From positions 682,001 to 746,000 of the forward strand of contig NZ_JARUBF010000001.1 in assembly GCF_029626025.1 (NCBI RefSeq): DNA of 64,000 nt. Direction: 5' to 3'. Within the stretch, counting starts at the first letter, position 1. Each line of letters begins with the position of its first letter. A program made the translations under genes and the position numbers. This DNA comes from Solwaraspora sp. WMMD406. Its GTDB lineage: Bacteria; Actinomycetota; Actinomycetes; Mycobacteriales; Micromonosporaceae. Below the pieces are notes generated by a model that saw only the letters and a list, made by a program, of their open reading frames with translations, made no database searches and was not told the origin of the DNA. Of the stretch, positions 2,022-41,451 are shown in pieces.

Positions 2022-2795
2022 TCACCCCAGTTGACCACGGAGATAGGCGATGTCCGCCGCCTGGCCGGTGGATCCACCCGGGGTCTCGACGATCACCGGA
2101 GCGTCGGCGGCGCGGACGATCGCGACGATCGCAGCCGGGTCGATCTCGCCGTTCTGGAGGTTGTCGTGGCGGTCGCGGCCGGAGCCGAACCCGTCCTTGG
2201 ATCCGTTCGCGTGGATCAGATCGATCCGTCCGGTGATGGCCTTGACCCGATCGACGATCCCCAGCAGATCCTCGCCGGCCGCGTGCGCGTGGCAGGTGTC
2301 CAGGCAGAAGCCGACGTCGAACTCGCCGACCGCGTCCCAGAGCCGGGCCAGCGCGTCGAACCGGCGGGCGCAGGCGTTGTCCCCGCCCGCGGTGTTCTCG
2401 ATCAGCACCGGCAGCGGAAATCCGCCCTGTTCCCTTGCGTACGCGAAGGTCTTGCGCCAGTTGTCGAACCCGACGGCCGGGTCGTCGCCCCGGTTGACGT
2501 GGCCGCCGTGCACGATCAAACCTTTCGCGGCGATCGCGCCGGCGGCGGCGGCATGACCGACCAGCAGTTTGCGGCTCGGGATGCGAATGCGGTTGTTGCT
2601 GGTCGCGACATTGATCACGTACGGGGCGTGGACGTAGACGTCCACGTCCGAGGCGCGCAACTCGTCGGCGTCGTCCCGCGACTTCGGCGCCTGCCAACCT
2701 TGCGGATCCGCGAGGAAGAACTGTACGGCGTCGGCTCGGCGGTCGGTGGCGGCGGCAAGCGGGTCGGCCGGGTCGACGTGGGCTCCGATACGCAT
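2022..2795 (-). CDS. nfo: Deoxyribonuclease IV (AP endonuclease)
   Basis: 257 residues. Endonuclease IV of the TIM-barrel AP2Ec family cleaves DNA 5' to abasic sites in base excision repair, using three metal ions. Visible family signatures are the start MRIGAHVD, the HAPYVINVA strand, the IVHGGHVN metal-binding segment, VLIENTAGG, and the FCLDTCHAHAAG and LIHANGSKD segments carrying His/Asp/Glu ligands. The frame is open upstream, but ATG at 2795 is chosen because the family begins with the (M)xxGAHVS-type strand and the 20 extra residues look like intergenic sequence. It precedes the membrane protein gene on the same strand by 20 bp, so the two may be co-transcribed. Confidence 0.92.
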   Translation of the reverse strand: MRIGAHVDPADPLAAATDRRADAVQFFLADPQGWQAPKSRDDADELRASDVDVYVHAPYVINVATSNNRIRIPSRKLLVGHAAAAGAIAAKGLIVHGGHVNRGDDPAVGFDNWRKTFAYAREQGGFPLPVLIENTAGGDNACARRFDALARLWDAVGEFDVGFCLDTCHAHAAGEDLLGIVDRVKAITGRIDLIHANGSKDGFGSGRDRHDNLQNGEIDPAAIVAIVRAADAPVIVETPGGSTGQAADIAYLRGQLG

Positions 2796-3433
2796 GTCGG
2801 CGAGCCTACGTGGCCGGCCTGACCGACTCGGCACGGTGGGCTGACCCCGCCCCACCCGCCGGCGGCGTCACCGGGGTCCGACGGCGTCGTTGAACCGGTC
2901 GGACATCCGGCCCGGTGGCTCCCGGTCAGCGTCGGGCCTCGCCCGGCTGGGAGTGACATGGCAGGTGACCGTCGGTCGGTGTACTGGTGACGGGCTCGTG
3001 GTGGAGCGAGCTGGCCGGACAGGAGCAGGCAACCGGACTTCTCGTATTGCTGGCGGCAATTGCCGTGATTGGTGTATCAGCGGCAGCTATTAGGGTTATT
3101 GTGGTGCAACACGGGCGGCGCACGCGCCGGCTGCCCTGATCCGAGACGCCATCGCCGCACAACTAAACAGGCTCCGCGGGGCGCTCCATGTCCAACCTCG
3201 TCGGTGTGGTCGTTCCTCCCCAGGTCCCACCCAAAGAATGCGGACAGGGGCGCCCCGCGGCTGGTGTCTCCCGGCCCCGGCGGCCGCGAGCCGCACCGAG
3301 CCGGGCCTGGTGCTCAGGCGCGAGCTCCCTGCTCGCCCGGGGTGCGCGTGCTGCCTGCTTCGGGGCCGGCTATCCTTGTCCAGTTGCGCTGGTGGTCGGC
3401 AATCCTGTTCGGCGACCGGCGCCACGACGCCAG
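2796..3433. other. Intergenic region between nfo and the rpsF operon
   Basis: About 640 bases between divergent genes. It must carry the promoter for rpsF (plus) and one for nfo (minus). I see no convincing ORF, tRNA or repeat. A locally AT-richer stretch around 3050-3115 is a plausible promoter area, and TATCCT at about 3370 is a possible -10 for rpsF, but I see no good -35 partner. Confidence 0.4.
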
Positions 3434-3477
3434 ACCTCCTGCCACGGAAGGACCGTGGCCGCCAGTCCAGAGGAGGT
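3434..3477 (+). promoter_or_regulatory. Candidate S6:S18 autoregulatory leader of rpsF
   Basis: ACCTCCT (3434-3440) is exactly complementary to AGGAGGT (3471-3477), the rpsF Shine-Dalgarno. Between them a perfect 6-bp hairpin (CCACGG 3442-3447, loop AAGGA, CCGTGG 3453-3458) is followed on its 3' side by an unpaired stretch that begins with CCG (3459-3461). A helix with a 3'-side bulge containing CCG is the hallmark of the S6:S18-binding motif known from bacterial rpsF mRNAs, which mimics the 16S rRNA site. Binding would stabilise the stem that hides the ribosome-binding site. The pairing is seen directly; the regulatory role is inferred from the known motif. Confidence 0.65.
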
Positions 3478-3486
3478 GAGTACGTC

Positions 3487-3777
3487 TTGCGTCATTACGA
3501 AATCATGGTGATCCTCGACCCCAGTCTCGAGGAGCGCACCGTAGCGCCATCGCTCGACACGTACCTGAACGTGATTCGGACCGCGGGTGGCTCGGTCGAG
3601 AAACTCGACGTCTGGGGCCGTCGGCGCCTTTCCTTCGAGATCAACAAGAAGGCCGAAGGGATCTACGCCGTCATCGACCTGCAGGCCAACCCGGATGCCG
3701 TCGCTGAGCTCGACCGCCAGCTGCGACTCAACGAGTCGGTGCTGCGTACCAAGGTCATTCGGCCGGAGACGCGCTGA
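3487..3777 (+). CDS. rpsF: 30S ribosomal protein S6
   Basis: 96 residues, the usual size. S6 binds the central domain of 16S rRNA as a heterodimer with S18. The start is a TTG at 3487: this gives the family N-terminus (M)[11 protein letters not shown], and it lies 10 bases after the strong AGGAGG at 3471-3476. The first ATG lies inside the conserved strand and would remove it. Conserved features include the [19 protein letters not shown] strand region and a C-terminal [10 protein letters not shown]. First gene of rpsF-ssb-rpsR-rplI, and probably translationally controlled by the hairpin that covers its Shine-Dalgarno. Confidence 0.96.
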
Positions 3778-3875
3778 CGCGCCTTTCCCGGCACGCCCGG
3801 ACAGCCTCGGTCGTCCTGTCGGTGGGCTCTGGCAGCCTTGACCGGGACGACGACTGAGCGCGCGAGGAGATGGTC

Positions 3876-4388
3876 ATGGCAGGAGATACCACCATCACGG
3901 TCATCGGCAACCTGACCGATGACCCTGAGTTGCGTTTTACCCCTTCGGGGGCGGCGGTCGCCAAGTTCCGGGTCGCCTCGACGCCCCGGTTCATGGACAA
4001 GGCCTCCGGTGAATGGAAGGACGGCGAGCCGCTCTTCCTGTCCTGCACCGTGTGGCGTCAGGCGGCCGAACACGTCGCCGAGTCACTTCAGCGGGGCGCC
4101 CGGGTGATCGTCTCGGGTCGGCTGCGGCAGCGGTCGTACGAGACCCGTGAGGGCGAAAAGCGCACCGTCATCGAGTTGGAAGTGGACGAGATCGGCCCGT
4201 CGCTGCGGTACGCCACGGCGAAGGTGCAGAAGATGTCCCGTTCCGGTTCCGGTGGTGGCGGCTTCGGCGGTTCCGGCGGCGGCAACTCCGGCGGCGGCAA
4301 CTTCGACGACCCGTGGGCCACCGCCGCGCCGGCAGCCTCGTCTGCCCGTTCCGGCGGCGGCAACTTCGACGAAGAACCTCCGTTCTGA
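3876..4388 (+). CDS. ssb: Single-stranded DNA-binding protein
   Basis: 170 residues. SSB coats single-stranded DNA during replication and repair. The OB fold is visible in the first ~110 residues ([53 protein letters not shown]). It is followed by a Gly/Ser-rich linker and the acidic tip DEEPPF that recruits partner proteins. ATG 3876 is preferred over the in-frame ATG at 3870 because GAGGAG (3864-3869) sits at ideal distance and the protein then begins MAGDTTITV as in relatives. Lies 98 bp after rpsF and 43 bp before rpsR. Confidence 0.96.
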
Positions 4389-4431
4389 CGTGGCAACCAA
4401 CGCACGCGATCGCAAACCAGGAGCAAGAGCA

Positions 4432-4671
4432 ATGGCCAAGGCTGCGGCACTGCGCAAGCCAAAGAAGAAGGTGAACCCGCTCGACAAGGACGGGATCACC
4501 TACATCGACTACAAGGACACCGCGCTGCTGCGCAAGTTCATCTCCGACCGCGGCAAGATCCGCGCTCGGCGGGTGACTGGGGTCACCTCCCAGCAGCAGC
4601 GCCAGATCGCTCGTGCGGTCAAGAACGCCCGCGAGATGGCGCTCCTGCCGTACACCACGACGGCACGCTGA
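4432..4671 (+). CDS. rpsR: 30S ribosomal protein S18
   Basis: 79 residues. It partners S6 in the 30S platform. The lysine-rich N-terminus ([13 protein letters not shown]) and the [31 protein letters not shown] and AREMALLPY blocks are diagnostic. It has no CxxC zinc motif, so this is the zinc-independent (C-minus) form, common as one of two S18 paralogues in actinobacteria. A ribosome-binding site (CAGGAGCAAG) precedes ATG 4432. Followed by rplI after 16 bp. Confidence 0.96.
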
Positions 4672-4687: not shown

Positions 4688-5137
4688 ATGAAGATCATCC
4701 TGACTCAGGAGGTCTCTGGGCTCGGTTCCCCAGGGGACATCGTCGAGGTCAAGGACGGTTTCGGCCGTAACTACCTGCTGCCCCAGGGGTTCGCGATCTC
4801 CTGGACCAAGGGAGCCGAGAAGCAGGTCACCTCGATCAAGCGGGCCCGGTCGGCGCGCGAGATTCGTGACCTCGGCCACGCCACCGAGGTCAAGGGGCAA
4901 CTCGAAGGCCTCAAGGTCAGCATGACCGCGCGGGCTGGCGACGGTGGCCGCCTGTTCGGTTCGGTCACGCCGGCCGAGGTGGTGGACGCGGTCCGGACCG
5001 CTGGTGGCCCGGCCATCGACCGGCGTCGGCTCGAACTGCCCGGTCACATCAAGTCGGTGGGGACCTACCCGGTGCGGGTGAAGCTGCACCCGGAGGTCAC
5101 CGCCACGTTCGACCTCAACGTGCTCCAGGCCAAGTAA
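4688..5137 (+). CDS. rplI: 50S ribosomal protein L9
   Basis: 149 residues, the full length of the two-domain family. The N-terminal rRNA-binding domain shows MKIILTQEVSGLGSPGDIVEVKDGFGRNYLLPQG, written here only as landmarks (MKIILTQEV at 1-9 and GFGRNYLLP at about 26-34). A long connecting helix rich in Lys/Arg/Glu and the C-terminal domain (GRLFGSVTPAEV, YPVRVKLHPEV) follow. GGGAGG upstream of ATG 4688 is the ribosome-binding site. Last gene of the operon; a large terminator follows 18 bp after the stop. Confidence 0.96.
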   Translation: MKIILTQEVSGLGSPGDIVEVKDGFGRNYLLPQGFAISWTKGAEKQVTSIKRARSAREIRDLGHATEVKGQLEGLKVSMTARAGDGGRLFGSVTPAEVVDAVRTAGGPAIDRRRLELPGHIKSVGTYPVRVKLHPEVTATFDLNVLQAK

Positions 5138-5155
5138 CCGCGGCTCGCACGACAG

Positions 5156-5212
5156 CGTCAGACACACCTGAGCCGCACCGGTCCGACCGGTGCGGCTCAG
5201 GTGTGTCTGACG
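5156..5212. terminator. 28-bp perfect palindrome, probable bidirectional terminator
   Basis: Arms 5156-5183 and 5185-5212 are exact reverse complements with one base between them, so the RNA hairpin has a 25-27-bp stem. It has no U-tract, as is usual for high-GC actinobacteria. It sits between convergent rplI (plus) and a lipoprotein gene (minus) and can serve both. Confidence 0.85.
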
Positions 5213-5280
5213 TGGGCGGACGACGATGTCTCCGGCGGGGGTCCGTGGTTCGGCCGGACCGGGCCGGCGGCGGAACGGGA

Positions 5281-6549
5281 TCAGCGCAGCGTGCTGGAGG
5301 TGACCTTCGGTTCGCCGGCCCCGAGAAAGAAGATGCCGGGATACCCGGCGGTCTCGAAGCCTCGGCTGGGATTGCGCCGCAACACCGAGTCGGTCAGCCG
5401 CAGGCTGCCGGAACGATCGTTGCTGACGAAAAAGATCGCGCCGCCACCTTCCCGGGCCTCGTTGTCCTCGATGATGGTGCCGGCGATCGTGACGGTGAAC
5501 TGGTTGCCGTCGGCGTAGATCGCGCCGCCACTGCCACCACCCGGCGTACCTGGCTTGGCGGGATTCGCGCCGTTGCCGACCGCCGAGTTGTGGGTCATCA
5601 GGCTGTTGAGCACGGTCCACGACACACCGATGCTGCTCACCGCTCCGCCGTTGGCGCACACCCCGCCCGCGTTCGGGGCACCGCCGAACGTGCTGCCGAC
5701 CACGTACACCGGCTTGTCCTGCCACTGGTCCAACACCCGGATCGCCGCCCCGCCCAGATCCGGGCCGGTACGGTCGCACCGGTTGCCCACGAACCGCGAA
5801 TTGACCACCCGGAACTGCCCGCCCCGAACGAAGATCGCGCCGCCGCCACCGCCGTCGGTCTGCTCGCCGGTCGCGTCGCCGTCGGCGAAGGTGAGGTTCT
5901 GCACCACCAGGCGCGGATGGTCCTGATCGTTGCAGTGCGACGTCGTCCACCCCTGAGCCTCGTCGCAGGTGTTCATGTAGAGGATGCGACGTTCGCCGCC
6001 GCCACTCAACGTCACCCGGCCGCCGCCGTCGAGCACCACCTGCCGGTTCGCCGCGTTGACGACCTTGGCGGTTCGCGTCATGGTGATGGTGACCGGCGCG
6101 GGCCCACAGGAGAACGTGATGATTCCGCCAGCGGCGACGGCGTCGACCACCGCAGCCGACGTACAGCTCGCCGCGGTCCCGTCACCAACGACGCGCGTCG
6201 GTCGGCTGGTGTCCACCGCCCGCGCGTGCTCGGGCACCGCCGCGCGACCAGCCGGATTGCCGGCCGAGAAGTCAGCCGCGGAGCCGGTCACCGCACCGTC
6301 CGGCGGGGCGCTCTCGGCCGTACCGGTAGGGCTCGGGGCAGCGCCGAGCGCGGCTAGGCCGGACGGCTCGCTGGACGGCGACCGTGGCGGGTCGGACGAC
6401 GGACTCGCCGCAGTCGCCGATGCGGCCGCCGGTGCCGTCGCCGGCGCGGAACCGGGCACCGGTGCGGTTCCACCGCATCCGGCGGCCAGGACGGCGATCG
6501 CCGTACCGGCGACGACCGTCAGCGAACGATTCCGGCTCCGGTAAGGCAT
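5281..6549 (-). CDS. Secreted lipoprotein with right-handed beta-helix repeats
   Basis: 422 residues. An N-terminal signal peptide ends in the lipobox LAAGC (Cys at about residue 25), so the protein is probably anchored on the outside of the membrane. A Pro/Ala/Ser-rich spacer (to ~100) follows, then a beta-helix type region with recurring turns such as GGGGAIFVRGGQFRVVNSRFVGN, cited here as GGAIFVRGG, GGAIYADGN and GGAIFFVSN at roughly regular spacing. Such folds are found in polysaccharide lyases and in surface proteins of unknown role; no catalytic residues could be recognised. The start ATG 6549 is chosen because it gives a typical basic-hydrophobic signal. It is convergent with rplI across the palindromic terminator. 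Confidence 0.75.
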   Translation of the reverse strand: MPYRSRNRSLTVVAGTAIAVLAAGCGGTAPVPGSAPATAPAAASATAASPSSDPPRSPSSEPSGLAALGAAPSPTGTAESAPPDGAVTGSAADFSAGNPAGRAAVPEHARAVDTSRPTRVVGDGTAASCTSAAVVDAVAAGGIITFSCGPAPVTITMTRTAKVVNAANRQVVLDGGGRVTLSGGGERRILYMNTCDEAQGWTTSHCNDQDHPRLVVQNLTFADGDATGEQTDGGGGGAIFVRGGQFRVVNSRFVGNRCDRTGPDLGGAAIRVLDQWQDKPVYVVGSTFGGAPNAGGVCANGGAVSSIGVSWTVLNSLMTHNSAVGNGANPAKPGTPGGGSGGAIYADGNQFTVTIAGTIIEDNEAREGGGAIFFVSNDRSGSLRLTDSVLRRNPSRGFETAGYPGIFFLGAGEPKVTSSTLR

Positions 6550-8969: not shown

Positions 8970-11900
8970 GTGTCCATCACTGACGACATACAGGCCGGCA
9001 CCCGACCGGCCCGTTCATCCGGTCCAGCGGGTCCGCCCTCCGGCGGCGGGCCACCCGGACCGCCCTCCGACGGTGGACAGTTCGATCGCACACCGCCCCA
9101 GGACATCGCCGCCGAGCAGTGCGTTCTCGGCGGCATGCTGCTGTCCAAGGACGCGATCGCCGACGTCGTGGAGATCCTGAAGTCCAACGACTTCTACCGG
9201 CCGATCCACGCCACCATCTTCGACGCCGTACTCGACCTGTACGGCCGGGGCGAGCCGGCCGACCCGATCACCGTCTCGGCGGCGCTGGCCGACTCCGGGG
9301 ACCTGGGCCGCATCGGCGGAGCTCCCTACCTGCACACCCTGATCGCGAGCGTGCCGACCGCCGCGAACGCCGCCTACTACGCCCGGATCGTCGCCGAGCG
9401 GGCCGTGCTCCGCCGGCTGGTCGAAGCCGGCACCCGGATCGTCCAGCTCGGGTACGGTTCGGCCGCCGGAAGCGGCCGGGACATCGACGACGTCGTCGAC
9501 CTGGCACAGCAGGCCGTGTACGACGTGACCGAGCGCCGGGTCAGCGAAGACTTCGCCATCCTCGCCGACATGCTGCAACCCACCCTCGACGAGATCGAAG
9601 CCGTCGGTGCCCAGGGTGGCGTGATGACCGGGGTGCCGACCGGATTCACCGATCTCGACCGGCTGCTCAACGGCCTGCATCCGGGACAACTGATCATCGT
9701 CGCCGGCCGGCCGGGTCTCGGCAAGGCACTGGCGCTGGACACCCCACTGCCCACCCCGACCGGCTGGACCACCATGGGTGAGGTCGACGTGGGCGACCAA
9801 CTCGTCGGTGCCGACGGTCGACCCACCACCGTGATCGCCACCTCGGGAGTCATGCTGGGCAGCACCTGCTACCAGGTGGAGTTCTCCGACGGCTCGTCGA
9901 TCGTCGCCGACGCCGACCACCTCTGGCAGGTGTCGTCCCTGCCGCCACGGCTGCCGGTGGCGATGGCCGGCGTCGGCTCCGCCGGCCAGCCACCCGTACC
10001 CGCTCACGTCGGTCGGTCGGTCGCGCGCACGCTCGCCACCGACGGCGTCCGGTCCACAGCGTCAGATGACGCGTCGCGGACCTGGGACGGTTCGGTCGCC
10101 GACGCCGTCACCGAGGTGACGACCACCGAACGGATCGCCGCCGCGCTGCGCCGGCAACCGGACGACCAACCCCGGCACGCGGTACGCAACTGTCGCCCGC
10201 TGGCCTTGCCGGACCGGGCCGACCTGCCGGAACAGCCGTATGAGCTCGGGGTCGCCCTCGCCACCGACCGGGATCCGGCCGACGTCGAGGAACCCGAGGA
10301 CGATCGGGGCATTCCCGACCCCTACCTTCGTGCCTCCGAATCGCAACGTCGTGCCCTGCTCGCCGGTCTGTTGGACGCCGCCGGCACGGTGAGCCCCAGC
10401 GGTCTGGTGGAGTACCGCACCACCTCCCGCCGACTCATCGACGGGGTACGTGAGCTGATCGCCAGCCTGGGATACCACTGCACCGTCTCGGGGGCCAGCG
10501 TCCAAGGGCGGATGACCGCCCCACCGACCGTCTACACGCTGACCTTCGACCCGGTCGACCAGGTGTTCAGCGAGTCCGGACGGCAGACCGGCCCTGGCGA
10601 GCCGGACCGGCTCGGCCGGTCCGGCTCCGCCTACCGCCACATCGTGGCGGTACGACCCGTACCCAGTGTCGCGGTCCGTTGTGTCACCGTGGCCAACGCC
10701 GATCATCTCTACCTGGCCGGTCGGACGATGATCCCGACGCACAACTCCACCGCGTCGATGGACTTCGCCCGCAACGCGGCGATCCGGCATGGCTGCGCGA
10801 GCGCGATCTTCTCCCTGGAAATGAGCAAGGTGGAGATCGTGATGCGGCTGCTGTCCGCCGAAGCGAAGGTGCCGCTGCACGTGCTGCGCTCCGGTCAGCT
10901 CTCCGACGACGACTGGACCAAACTGGCCCGACGGATGGGTGAGATCAGCGAAGCGCCGCTGTTCGTCGACGACACCCCCAATATGAACTTGATGGAGATC
11001 CGGGCCAAGGCGCGCCGGCTGCGCCAGCGGCACGACCTCAAGATGATCGTCGTCGACTACCTCCAGCTGATGTCGTCGCCGAAGCGGACCGAGAGCCGTC
11101 AGCAGGAGGTCGCCGAGCTGTCCCGAGGCCTCAAGCTGCTGGCCAAGGAGGTCGAGTGTCCGGTCATCGCGGTGAGCCAGCTCAACCGTGGGCCGGAGCA
11201 GCGTACCGACAAGCGACCGCAACTGTCCGACCTGCGGGAGTCGGGGTGTCTGACCGCCGCGACCCGCCTGATCCGGGCCGACGACAACTCGGAGGTCGCC
11301 CTCGGGGACCTGCTCGCTTCGGGGGCGACCGACGTCCCGGTCTGGGCACTCGACGAGAGTCTGCGCTACACCCCGCGCACCCTGACCCATGTGTTCCCGA
11401 GTGGACACCGTACGGTGTTCCGCCTGACGCTGGCCTCCGGCAAACAGATCGAGGCCACCGCGAACCACCCCTTCCTCACCGTCGCCGGGTGGACGCCGCT
11501 CGGTGACCTCACGATCGGCACCAGACTCGCCACGCCCCGGCACATTCCGCCGCCACTGGCCGTGCGGCCCTGGGCGGAGCCGGAGGTTGTGCTGTTGGCG
11601 CACCTGCTGGGTGCCGGCTCGTTCGCCCGCCAGCCGGTCCGCTACGTCAGCCGGGACGAGGCCAACCTGCGGACCGTCGCGCAGGCGGCCAAGCATTTCG
11701 GGATCGACGCGCCGCGTGTCGACGAGTCGTGTGGCGACGCACCGCGTGACGAGGAGTCGCCGGCCACTGCTACCACACTCCGGCTGGCCGAGCCCGAGCC
11801 CGACCCCGACTCCGACCACGGCGCGGCCGGTACGCCCCGTTCGATCGCGCGATGGCTCGACGGGATGGGTCTGCTCGGCCTCGGTCCAGACGAGCTGTTC

Positions 11901-39033: not shown

Positions 39034-39683
39034 AGCCAGGCCTTGAGTCAGGAATAGTCGGTTGTGTCCCGGCAATTGAGGAAATCGGTGTGCCGAAGTC
39101 GGGTGTTCCAGATCTGCCTCACGCTAGGACGCAGTTGTTGGCGGCCATGAGGCTTGTTCGGTTCGTACCAGCTGAATGTCTCGATCTTGGCGGTGCCAAG
39201 AAGGAGGGCCTCGTCAAGGGCCGGAATCAGGTCGGTGTCCTGGGCGGCGAGGATGACAAGGTCGACCTCCTCGCGGCGGGCCTCCCGAACCATGGCTAGG
39301 GCGCAAAGCACATCAACACCCTTTTCTTGTGGCGTACCGATCACGATGCGCTTCCCGGAGGGGTCGCTTGCTGGTTTGCCGTATTCGTCGTAATGGTATC
39401 TGTACTTGAGTGGTCGTAGGGTTACCGATACACGCGGGTCGCGTTCCCACTCGGCTTTTTGCATCTGGTTTCTGCGGTGTCCGCTTGGGTCGTGATCGGG
39501 TGATGGCTCGCCTCGATAGACGAGCACTTTATGTAGCTCTGCATGTGCCATGCCTGGTTTTTGTAGGTCGTTTCGAGTCTTCAATAATTGGTTGGCGAAG
39601 TGTAAGGGATGTATCAAGGTTTCATGTTTTGGTAGGCCTTGGTGCGCGACGAAGAGTCCGTGTCCGGTAAGGTGCACATTTTG

Positions 39684-39705
39684 GAGGCTTATTCAGCAGG
39701 CCTCC
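39684..39705. repeat. Left terminal inverted repeat of the IS
   Basis: 22 bases. Aligned to the right end with one gap it agrees at the GAGG, ATTCA and CAGGCC blocks. Confidence 0.8.
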
Positions 39706-39800
39706 GACCCGCTACAGTAGACCCCCAATAAAAGGACGATCCGCTCTTCCGTAGGATGGAGTTACCACACAACATCACAAAGAAAAGCGGACCGCCGAAC

Positions 39801-40562
39801 ATGTATCATACCACTGGCTTCACCACGGACCAGATCCGCGACCTCTGCGTGCTGGTCCGAGCGGAATGCCAGGATCTGGATGTGGAGCCGTGGCCCCCGG
39901 TCCTTGGTCTCTACCGCGCTGTCGTCGTCGCGTTGACCTACATGCGTCGCAACCGCGTCCAAGCGGAGATCGCCGAAGCACACGGCGTCTCCCAGCCGAC
40001 GATCTCGCGAGCGGTCACCGGCATCACCCCGGTCCTCGATCGCGTGCTGACGGAGTTCGTACCGACAGCCGACGACCTCAGCCCGACCGACCAGTACATC
40101 GTCGACGGCACCCTGCTTCCCTGCTGGTCATGGCGCACGCACCGCTGTCTGTACTCCGGCAAGCACAAGACCACGGGCATGAGCGTCCAGGTCGCCTGCA
40201 CCCTCGACGGCGCGCTCGCCTGGATCTCCGATCCCGTCACCGGCAACCACCACGACTCGTACGCGATCAACGACACCGGGGTCCTCGTCACCCTGAATCC
40301 CGGAGACTGGATCGGTGACAAGGGCTACGTCGGCAACGGCATGATCACCCCGTACAAGAAGCCCAAAGGTGGCGAGCTCGCGGAATGGCAGAAGGAATAC
40401 AACAGGCAGGTCAACAAGATCCGCTGGGTTGTGGAACAGGTCGTCGCGAACCTGAAGACATGGCGGATCCTGCACACCGACTACCGCAGACCGCTCGCGA
40501 CCTTCACAGAAACGATCTCCTGTGTTATCGGATTGCACTTCTACAGGATGGCCTGTGAATAG
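39801..40562 (+). CDS. Transposase, IS5-family type (DDE_Tnp_4 domain)
   Basis: 253 residues. It has an N-terminal helix-turn-helix (AEIAEAHGVSQPTISRAV, about 61-78) and a DDE catalytic core: Asp in YIVDGTLLP, Asp in WIGDKGYVG and Glu in WVVEQVVANLKTW. The GNHHDSY segment between them is typical of this domain. Start: ATG 39801 (MYHTTGFTTDQ) fits relatives. An in-frame ATG at 39756 adds 15 atypical residues but has GTAGG upstream, so the longer form cannot be excluded. It lies inside the IS and is complete. Confidence 0.92.
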   Translation: MYHTTGFTTDQIRDLCVLVRAECQDLDVEPWPPVLGLYRAVVVALTYMRRNRVQAEIAEAHGVSQPTISRAVTGITPVLDRVLTEFVPTADDLSPTDQYIVDGTLLPCWSWRTHRCLYSGKHKTTGMSVQVACTLDGALAWISDPVTGNHHDSYAINDTGVLVTLNPGDWIGDKGYVGNGMITPYKKPKGGELAEWQKEYNRQVNKIRWVVEQVVANLKTWRILHTDYRRPLATFTETISCVIGLHFYRMACE

Positions 40563-40567
40563 ACCTC
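40546..40567. repeat. Right terminal inverted repeat of the IS
   Basis: Counterpart of the left repeat; the transposase stop codon (40560-40562) lies inside it, as is common in compact IS elements. Confidence 0.8.
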
Positions 40568-40627
40568 TTGGTAATCAATGACGATGGTGGCGCGAAGGGT
40601 TGTCATGGGAACATGCTACTCGAGCAT

Positions 40628-40661
40628 AAAAAAACCCCACCAGTCCCGGAGGACGGTGGGG
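40628..40661 (-). terminator. Intrinsic terminator just upstream of the NYN start
   Basis: On the minus strand CCCCACC (40661-40655), an inner GTCC-TCCG-GGAC hairpin, and GGTGGGG (40641-40635) are followed by seven T. Stem of 11 bp with one bulged base. It stands 21 bases before the NYN ATG at 40606, so it must end either a small RNA or the NYN transcript prematurely. A true U-tract is rare in this window. Confidence 0.85.
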
Positions 40662-40689
40662 AACTATGTAGCTAGTCTGCCACACAGAT

Positions 40690-40762
40690 GCTCCCCGCGC
40701 CAGCCGATCTGGCGACAAGATCGCCATCCTGCGTCGCTGGCTGGGCCAGCGATGCGGGGAGC
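40690..40762 (-). ncRNA. Structured leader or small RNA, junction-like, unknown family
   Basis: Closing stem GCTCCCCGC (40762-40754) with GCGGGGAGC (40698-40690), 9 bp perfect. Inside are a hairpin CGCTGG-CCCAG-CCAGCG (40751-40735) and a hairpin TGGCGA-TCTTG-TCGCCA (40726-40710). A GCTGGC/GCCAGC pairing (40704-40699 with 40742-40737) would compete with the first hairpin. GGGGAG in the 3' strand of the closing stem can also pair with TTCCCC in the terminator's 5' arm, so an antiterminator is possible. The RNA could be an attenuation leader of the NYN gene or a free small RNA. I recognise no known family; there is no tRNA T-loop. The stems are seen, the role is inferred. Confidence 0.6.
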
Positions 40763-40830
40763 CTTTCGGCCTATACCGGGCATGGGGGGCAGGTCCGGGC
40801 ACGTCGCGCTGTTCCCCGTACCGTCAAGGT

Positions 40831-41451
40831 GTGACCGAACTCGCGGCGATCGTGTTGACCGGTGGCGCGGCGCGCCGGATGGGCGGCGTCGACAAACCGG
40901 GCGTACCGGTGAATGGGGTGGCCATGCGGGACCGGGTGCTGGCGGCCGTCGCGCGCGCCGACCCACGCGTCGTCGTCGGCCTACTGGCCGATCCGCCGCC
41001 GGGTGTGCTGACCGTACGGGAGGAGCCGCCCGGTGCCGGTCCGGTCGCCGCGACCGCCGCCGGCCTGGCAGCGCTGACCCGGCCCGACATCGAGCCCGGG
41101 GTACGCGTCGACATGGTCGCGGTGCTCGCCGGCGACCTGCCGCTGCTCACCGCGCACGCGGTGGACCTGCTCGTCGACGCCGCCCGGGACCAACCGGCGG
41201 CCGGGGCGTTGTACGTCGACGACACCGGCCGGCGGCAACTGCTCTGCGGAGTGTGGCGTACGGCTGCGCTACGCGACGCGATCACCCGACTCGCCACCGG
41301 ACGGGGTGGCGCGTTGGCCGGGGCGTCGATGCGGGCGTTGCTCGCGGACCTGACCGTCACCGAGGTCACCTGGCGCGACCCCGGCCCGCCACCGTGGTTC
41401 GATTGCGACACCGACCAGGACGTGCGGCAGGCGCAGGAGTGGAGCCGATGA
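40831..41451 (+). CDS. mobA: Molybdenum cofactor guanylyltransferase MobA
   Basis: 206 residues. It attaches GMP to molybdopterin to make the dinucleotide cofactor used by formate-dehydrogenase-type enzymes. The nucleotide-binding signature is LTGGAARRMGGVDKP, with LAGDLPLL (Asp for metal) and a C-terminal WFDCDTDQD. GTG 40831 has TACCGT ending six bases upstream, a -10-like element compatible with leaderless translation, and only a weak AAGG. Its ATGA overlap with the next gene and the nearby FdhF gene fit a joint role. Confidence 0.92.
   Translation: MTELAAIVLTGGAARRMGGVDKPGVPVNGVAMRDRVLAAVARADPRVVVGLLADPPPGVLTVREEPPGAGPVAATAAGLAALTRPDIEPGVRVDMVAVLAGDLPLLTAHAVDLLVDAARDQPAAGALYVDDTGRRQLLCGVWRTAALRDAITRLATGRGGALAGASMRALLADLTVTEVTWRDPGPPPWFDCDTDQDVRQAQEWSR

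Follow-up and report, generated by a model that had tools for sequence, protein, structure and literature searches.

A bulged hairpin RNA element associated with NYN-domain genes in actinobacteria and present without them nearby in actinophages

We show herein that a predicted RNA element, consisting of a leader of 5-6 nt, a stem with a single bulged U and a U-rich tail, is conserved as a structure and starts close to a promoter-like box, and that this putative hairpin RNA and a gene for a predicted NYN-domain RNase travel together. The presence of the hairpin beside the NYN gene, together with phage copies that lack the gene nearby, suggests a bacterial RNA-protein pair, for defence or of the toxin-antitoxin kind, with a phage decoy directed against it. 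We infer that the NYN protein would bind the RNA, that the RNA would inhibit the protein and that phages would benefit from their copies. The element was recognized in a 64,000-nt stretch of the genome of Solwaraspora sp. WMMD406 (hereafter the window).

Results

The hairpin and the interrupted NYN gene of the window

An 11-bp hairpin (7 + 4 bp) occupies 40661-40635 on the minus strand. Its parts follow one another as CCCCACC (40661-40655), GTCC, the TCCG loop, GGAC, a bulged T (40642) and GGTGGGG (40641-40635), and seven T residues resembling the tail of an intrinsic terminator come next (40634-40628). The first-pass annotation had described this terminator hairpin with its seven T, 21 bases ahead of the NYN start, as well as a three-codon ORF (ATG CTC GAG TAG) in between; both are indeed there, the ORF at 40627-40616 and the ATG of the NYN gene, 21 bases from the hairpin, at 40606. 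The predicted stability of the hairpin is -22 kcal/mol (z -4.2), and none of 200 shuffled sequences was equally stable. Across the window, Rfam yielded no match at the gathering score, the best sub-threshold match having an E value of 0.1. A covariance model built in this work, R1, covers 40668-40623 of the minus strand (leader CAUAGUU, hairpin and U tail) with 65.4 bits (E 1.5e-14), a score that is not independent, since the window itself contributed to the 72 sequences used to build R1. This is the sole R1 match in its own genome at E up to 0.001. A candidate -10 element, CAGACT (40679-40674, minus strand), fits the family pattern described below, its last T lying 13 nt ahead of the first C of the hairpin, and the same pattern would place the transcription start at about 40667.

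The locus in the window is itself broken, because an insertion sequence splits the NYN gene after codon 13, a break that had previously gone unseen. The first 13 codons are read at 40606-40568 (minus strand); the insertion sequence (39684-40567, plus strand) measures 884 bp, has inverted ends GAGG..GGCC and is flanked by a 3-bp duplication, CAA (40570-40568 and 39683-39681), and its transposase ORF lies at 39756-40562 on the plus strand (DDE_Tnp_4, 5.3e-27). The protein start quoted in the first-pass annotation runs across this insert (39684-40567). The rest of the gene (39048-39683, minus strand), searched alone against Pfam, gave nothing at E up to 0.001; it groups with the protein of Kribbella antiqua (L108) in the NYN tree with a support of 90.

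The fold upstream of the putative promoter

Between mobA and the putative NYN promoter, a very stable fold resembling a four-way junction was observed at 40690-40762. The 73 nt from 40762 to 40690 (minus strand) have a predicted energy of -48 kcal/mol (z -4.47), matched by none of 200 shuffled sequences. The earlier description of a junction fold thus holds as to its stability but not as to its two inner hairpins, of which there are three. Its union with the terminator into one unit finds no support: when the whole region was searched against 298 genomes of the order, 12 matched, own genome included, and of the 11 others seven match the hairpin and four only short upstream pieces, so that no locus matches the entire fold. 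In the six other genomes of the genus, DNA similarity ends at the mobA start (40828-40832), and the junction fold is absent at the DNA level from all six. Its region is present in a single copy in its own genome. An antiterminator had also been proposed, in which GGGGAG of the closing stem pairs with TTCCCC at the base of the terminator. This pairing would be missing from the transcript, because the fold sits upstream of the inferred promoter (-10 at 40679-40674, start at about 40667), and it too lacks, among the loci compared, one that matches the whole fold. The fold was also considered as a riboswitch, a tRNA-like RNA or an attenuator; it is stable, but it is unconserved and single-copy, contains no tRNA and belongs to no Rfam family. 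As judged from these comparisons, the larger junction fold is no part of the hairpin-NYN system.

Linkage of hairpin and NYN gene

An initial protein search found matches in 9 of 200 genomes from the family. Seven matches to the hairpin DNA came from other families, with an NYN gene just downstream in six, two of these genes being damaged. When the hairpin pattern was searched for in 394 class genomes, it turned up at 33 places in 26 genomes, versus at least four matches for the reversed control. Thirty of these loci were read: 22 have an NYN match downstream, and three of the other eight still possess an NYN start, while two of the eight (L044 and L047) are poor pattern matches.

An NYN-alignment scan of species genomes, from which the best 80 of 145 relatives were kept (L098-L177), approached the linkage from the protein side. 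One relative (L170) is filed under Chloroflexota; the hairpin-NYN loci are nearly all actinobacterial. The hairpin stands 5' of the NYN gene in 73 of the 78 loci with a readable start. The refutation proposed in the first-pass annotation is split by the homologous loci, which keep the terminator hairpin of the window but not the closing stem of the junction fold. The five exceptions are L117, L123, L153 and L154, where a 5' hairpin is lacking, and L158, where it has decayed. For the family of 72 hairpins analyzed below, these five were left out, as were L119 and L120 (N-terminus off the contig) and L138 (identical to L137); the hairpins of L115, L161 and L174 were placed by eye.

An NYN-alignment search of the 394 class genomes found 39 places in 29 genomes; 28 of these places, including the broken gene of the window, begin at query position 9 or lower. 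Upstream of these 28, R1 matches clearly in 25, weakly in two (G633/L249, 22.7 bits; G553/L262, 17.6 bits) and not at all in one (G450/L256). At L256, which carries a remote NYN gene, a different hairpin (GGCCCGG..CCGGGCC) was seen by eye at the same place, perhaps a co-evolved RNA type. Eight of 296 genomes of the phylum, own genome included, matched R1; in the other seven, the NYN gene lies directly downstream in four (L188, L189, L190 and L193) and is divergent in one (L192), and no NYN gene was found in the stretch read at L187, whose flank is partly masked, or at L191. Since R1 was built from NYN-linked hairpins, these counts show the recurrence of a known type rather than the absence of other types.

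Two clades are devoid of a 5' hairpin, one comprising three of four Herbidospora species and the other L117, L123 and the plasmids L181 and L184. The second clade gave no R1 match even with filters off and E up to 10. The RNA is therefore not universal for this NYN protein, and the idea of a strict need of the protein for the RNA is weakened accordingly. Upstream of the NYN gene of L181, a long TGACATCCCGG/CCGGGATGTCA inverted repeat takes the place of the R1 hairpin.

A tree was built from 62 NYN proteins, 57 of which have a hairpin, and on it features of the RNA follow the protein. The fifth stem base changes 6 times (shuffled mean 14.1), leader base -4 three times (16.0) and the stem-length class three times (13.4); host order, available for 50 rows, changes 22 times versus 34.4 when shuffled.

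Eight plasmid stretches contain the NYN gene, six with the hairpin and two, from Mycolicibacterium plasmids, without it. By annotation, no neighboring gene recurs among the eight, though mobilisation, partition or replication genes lie near the NYN gene in three (L179, L180 and L182), and Shedu and Abi genes in the Dietzia stretch. A plasmid search with one 43-nt query returned nine records, seven being NYN plasmids of the known set and two being weak Embleya matches.

In the Frankia family, 29 hairpins were found in 22 of 35 genomes, and an uninterrupted NYN reading frame follows five of them within the stretch read (L195, L197, L200, L204 and L207). The 24 hairpins beside broken genes fit a gene that is costly to keep, but recent decay accounts for the intact hairpins no less well, and solitary Frankia hairpins were for that reason dropped as proof of a separate function of the RNA. 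Internally deleted Frankia copies had raised the idea of a mobile element bounded by the hairpin and the gene end; decay is the simpler view, because the one pair compared closely has no common 3' boundary. In L052, two Frankia copies (4965-5502 and 9005-9542) share 97.8% identity over a region that starts 5 nt ahead of the hairpin and extends into the gene; their promoters differ, and the left edge of the shared region is sharp.

Conservation of the structure and the putative promoter

Among the 72 hairpins, the lower stem is mostly CCCC[GA][CT]C/GG[CT]GGGG, the upper stem differs among members in both length and loop, and 68 of them have a U as the bulge. At least five T residues occur among the eight bases after the stem in 65 of the 72, but the longest T run is just 2-3 in 15, making the tail a weak terminator in some members. 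Alignment A3, which holds 71 of the 72 family hairpins plus the window, was used to examine covariation at nine pairs. Paired bases fill 99.2% of the cells. Double-changed cells number 41 versus 8.9 in shuffled data, two-sided changes occur in five pairs versus 2.4, and sliding the partner by one to three columns as a control lowers pairing to 35-55%. The compensatory changes in homologous loci that had been put forward as a check are thus found for the stems of the terminator hairpin.

The leaders have a T at -13 in 51 of 72 cases and an A at -6 in 49, which points to a -10 element and a transcription start about six bases before the stem. A -10-like hexamer is present in 57 of the 72 NYN-linked leaders versus 322 of 4800 random positions.

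The NYN protein

Profile, fold and conserved acidic residues all identify the product as a predicted NYN-domain protein. The Pfam model PF01936 (NYN) matches 14 of 14 members of alignment A2 at E up to 1 (best 1.9e-18), although the first NYN member, with 23.5 bits, falls just below the Pfam cut-off of 24.2. NCBIfam gave no match for any of the nine proteins tested. The candidate defence gene model HEC-09 of PADLOC likewise matches all 14 A2 proteins at E up to 1 (best 6.9e-11). An AlphaFold model based on 62 sequences has a pLDDT of 95.9, and its best structure matches are the NYN structures 2qip and 5yaa/6fdl. In Foldseek, VPA0982 (2qip) reached an E value of 1.4e-6, and the NYN domain of MARF1 was weaker at about 1e-3; the TM scores by query length are modest (0.41-0.44). 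D13, N16, D135, D160 and D162 are invariant among the 62 proteins.

Hairpin units apart from the NYN mRNA

The position of the hairpin 5' of the NYN gene in 73 of 78 loci, its U tail and its closeness to the start codon would all be expected of a leader acting only in cis, either an attenuator or a stem-loop through which the NYN protein regulates its own mRNA, the RNA having no role of its own. Other RNases, RNase III for instance, are known to autoregulate by cleaving their own 5' leaders. Such a precedent notwithstanding, we regard a cis-only leader as unlikely, on account of loci in which the predicted hairpin occupies a separate transcription unit beside the NYN gene, as is shown by three kinds of loci without an intact 5' hairpin: three Herbidospora species, L192 and L273.

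Each of the four Herbidospora loci contains another hairpin unit, which begins 41-54 nt past the NYN stop, is read from the same strand and has a -10 of the TGGTA type and a T-rich tail; no second NYN match was found there. Its TGTTCCCCGCC..GGCGGGGCT parts are identical across the four species, whose NYN genes are 67-81% identical. The 5' hairpin has been deleted or has decayed in three of these four species, that is, where a separate copy exists. At L192, the hairpin lies about 130 nt from an NYN frame (HMM 2-201) on the opposite strand, as a divergent unit. L192 belongs to a low-GC genome, in which the NYN frame and the divergent unit, of the same type as elsewhere, were read at 1501-2305. 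The viral contig L273 has an NYN frame (HMM 1-201) followed right after its stop by a convergent unit with TTGACT and GATACT-like boxes, and R1 has no match 5' of the NYN gene at E up to 0.5. A purely cis-acting leader RNA would, we argue, have no reason to persist in these stand-alone places. The attenuation leader of the nuclease suggested in the first-pass annotation is accordingly possible in cis but insufficient, because three kinds of loci keep the RNA outside the NYN mRNA, and phages that have no NYN gene nearby keep it too. Tandem hairpins before the NYN gene were found only at L107 and L155 among the NYN loci compared.

Copies in phages and viral contigs

The exact pattern, a 27-mer including the bulge, is present in 16 viral contigs. 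Within stretches of 2.7-14 kb, 15 of the 16 have no NYN match, and in the sixteenth (L282) an NYN gene begins at the contig end. A separate NYN scan found nine viral contigs, none among these 16; R1 matches clearly 5' of the gene in five of the nine and weakly in one, another is L273, and two hold no NYN start. Two 43-nt queries further retrieved 16 records of 12 named actinophages with similar copies, namely those of Microbacterium (Footloose, Hortus1, OlinDD, Tandem and Alleb), Mycobacterium (Krypton555, Finnry and prophiGD102-1), Gordonia (Holliday, Birdsong and GAL1) and Clavibacter (CN1A). Two NYN queries against 50,697 phage records found nothing. All 24 phage loci examined match R1, with 26.3 to 68.2 bits, CN1A and Krypton555 being the weakest.

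Because the query that found the named phages contained the leader, the leader was counted apart in 13 distinct exact-pattern contigs. It has T at -5 in 10, A or T at -4 in 13, G at -3 in 7 and T at -1 in 10, a total score of 53 of 65, versus a random mean of 20.0 and none as high in 5000 trials. A -10-like hexamer occurs in only 4 of these 13 contigs and in 0 of 8 named phages, in contrast to the 57 of 72 NYN loci. What the phages retain is thus the predicted transcript, with its leader, hairpin and U tail, whereas the promoter is for the most part absent. The phage copies could also serve the phage as terminators for another reason.

A good generic terminator might simply have spread among actinobacteria and phages, its linkage to NYN being incidental; the CN1A copy is annotated as a terminator, and phages keep the U tails. 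We hold this to be most improbable, given that 22 of the 30 pattern loci read in the class genomes have an NYN gene downstream and three more keep its start, that neither the bulged U nor a 5-nt leader is needed for a terminator, and that unbulged, swapped-upper-stem and reversed versions of the pattern each occur 0 times in the viral collection versus 16 for the true one. Alternatively, the hairpin in phage transcripts might be a target or trigger, recognized by the NYN protein, which would cleave these transcripts or be activated by them, with the copy in its own leader providing feedback. The phages that carry the element infect several host genera, some copies adjoin late genes or tRNAs, and the conserved bulge and stem would fit recognition by the NYN protein. 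Phages should, however, lose a trigger, yet 16 viral contigs keep the exact 27-mer with its bulge, and also the leader, and we therefore consider a target or trigger rather improbable.

Discussion

Proposed role

We somewhat favor a role of the hairpin as an RNA antitoxin or inhibitor of the predicted NYN RNase, type III-like in its logic but with other folds, to which phage decoys would be added. RNA polymerase would start about 6 nt before the hairpin and mostly stop at the U tail, giving an RNA of about 40 nt in excess, and read-through past the hairpin would yield a little NYN mRNA. The NYN protein would recognize the conserved lower stem, the bulged U and the flanks and would be kept inactive by the RNA, which would act in trans like an antitoxin. 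If this balance were disturbed, as when a phage takes over transcription, unbound NYN protein could cleave RNA and stop the phage or the cell. Phages, in turn, would place copies of the hairpin in their own transcripts as decoys, some beside late genes and some beside tRNA genes. The earlier guess of a small RNA handled by an RNA-cleaving partner gains from the conservation, the covariation, the NYN linkage, the stand-alone units and the phage copies, although it is presumably, rather than visibly, the NYN protein itself that does the handling.

A bolder version, to which we give slightly less than an even chance, would make the pair a minimal module of immunity or addiction: one hairpin of about 40 nt would be both terminator and antitoxin of the NYN RNase, and phages of Microbacterium, Gordonia, Mycobacterium and Clavibacter would have acquired exact or near-exact decoys against it, placed beside late and tRNA genes. 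To our knowledge, few families of RNA antitoxins of RNases are known. If true, this would be a second, unrelated solution of that kind, using a single small hairpin, across the actinobacterial phylum; it would supply a group of "NYN domain-containing proteins", and also unexplained intergenic hairpins of phages, with a function, and the copies in named, culturable phages would offer a compact model of an RNA-level arms race. The RNA, the protein and the phages are small and cheap to test.

Relation to known systems

Type III toxin-antitoxin systems (ToxIN, CptIN and TenpIN) share with the hairpin-NYN loci a promoter, a short RNA, an intrinsic terminator and an RNase gene, all predicted here, and an occurrence on both plasmids and chromosomes. 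The nearest precedent for the phage copies comes from mutant phages that reportedly escape ToxIN through an RNA mimic, "pseudo-ToxI", as described in passages of the review PMC5086642. In those passages, the criterion used to search for type III systems is a terminator preceded by tandem nucleotide repeats. A single hairpin is the rule here; among the loci compared, two copies stand before NYN only at L107 and L155, and two occur in the phage contig L287; the toxin fold is NYN instead of ToxN. Because repeats and toxin fold both differ, the hairpin-NYN pair is not filed as type III. The antitoxin RNA of type III is pseudoknotted; a simple bulged hairpin accounts for the covariation here. Unlike in type III, the hairpin itself is the putative terminator and the RNA may lie downstream of the gene or on the other strand.

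With other NYN/LabA-like nucleases (PF01936; VPA0982, 2qip; MARF1), the protein has profile, fold and acidic residues in common, but it forms a separate subfamily, with a first member just under the Pfam cut-off, no NCBIfam match for the nine proteins tested and a link to a dedicated RNA. The PADLOC model HEC-09, which the hairpin-linked NYN proteins match, is without a description. The passage of PMC12447246 that names HEC-09 makes no mention of RNA, and the terms HEC and NYN are absent from the PADLOC paper (PMC8565338). Autoregulated leaders of the RNase III type resemble the present case in having a hairpin in the RNase's own 5' leader; unlike them, the NYN hairpin is also found away from the mRNA and in phages. 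A literature search by title, abstract start or passages found no description of the hairpin among the matches listed, bioRxiv and most subscription papers being outside its scope.

Neighbors of the phage hairpins

Twelve contigs were tested with one or two ORFs each. In ten of them, a phage family whose function is named was matched (portal, terminase, capsid, tail, exonuclease or lysin); L285 matches a phage family of unknown function, and L276 matches none but has 16 tRNA genes. A tRNA gene is no more than 210 nt away from five of the 19 phage hairpins, whereas random positions within these stretches give a mean of 1.36, with five or more in 42 of 20,000 placements. Copies beside tRNA genes would fit a tRNA-attacking RNase if the module reading is true; their proximity may also stem from terminators that follow tRNA arrays, but Footloose and CN1A have the opposite order, with the hairpin ahead of the tRNA. 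The 16 tRNA genes of L276, a 146-kb viral contig, were observed within 2538-4627, with the hairpin following the last one after about 110 nt, in the same orientation. In L287, the hairpin is present twice. The hairpin of L288 (7702-7747) lies about 107 nt upstream of an ORF for the major head protein, and that of L291 (4122-4167) about 26 nt upstream of a terminase-like ORF, each on the same strand as the ORF. In Hortus1 (L293, 2499-2798), annotated gene 22 and the hairpin overlap; the gene may have been given a wrong start or may not be real.
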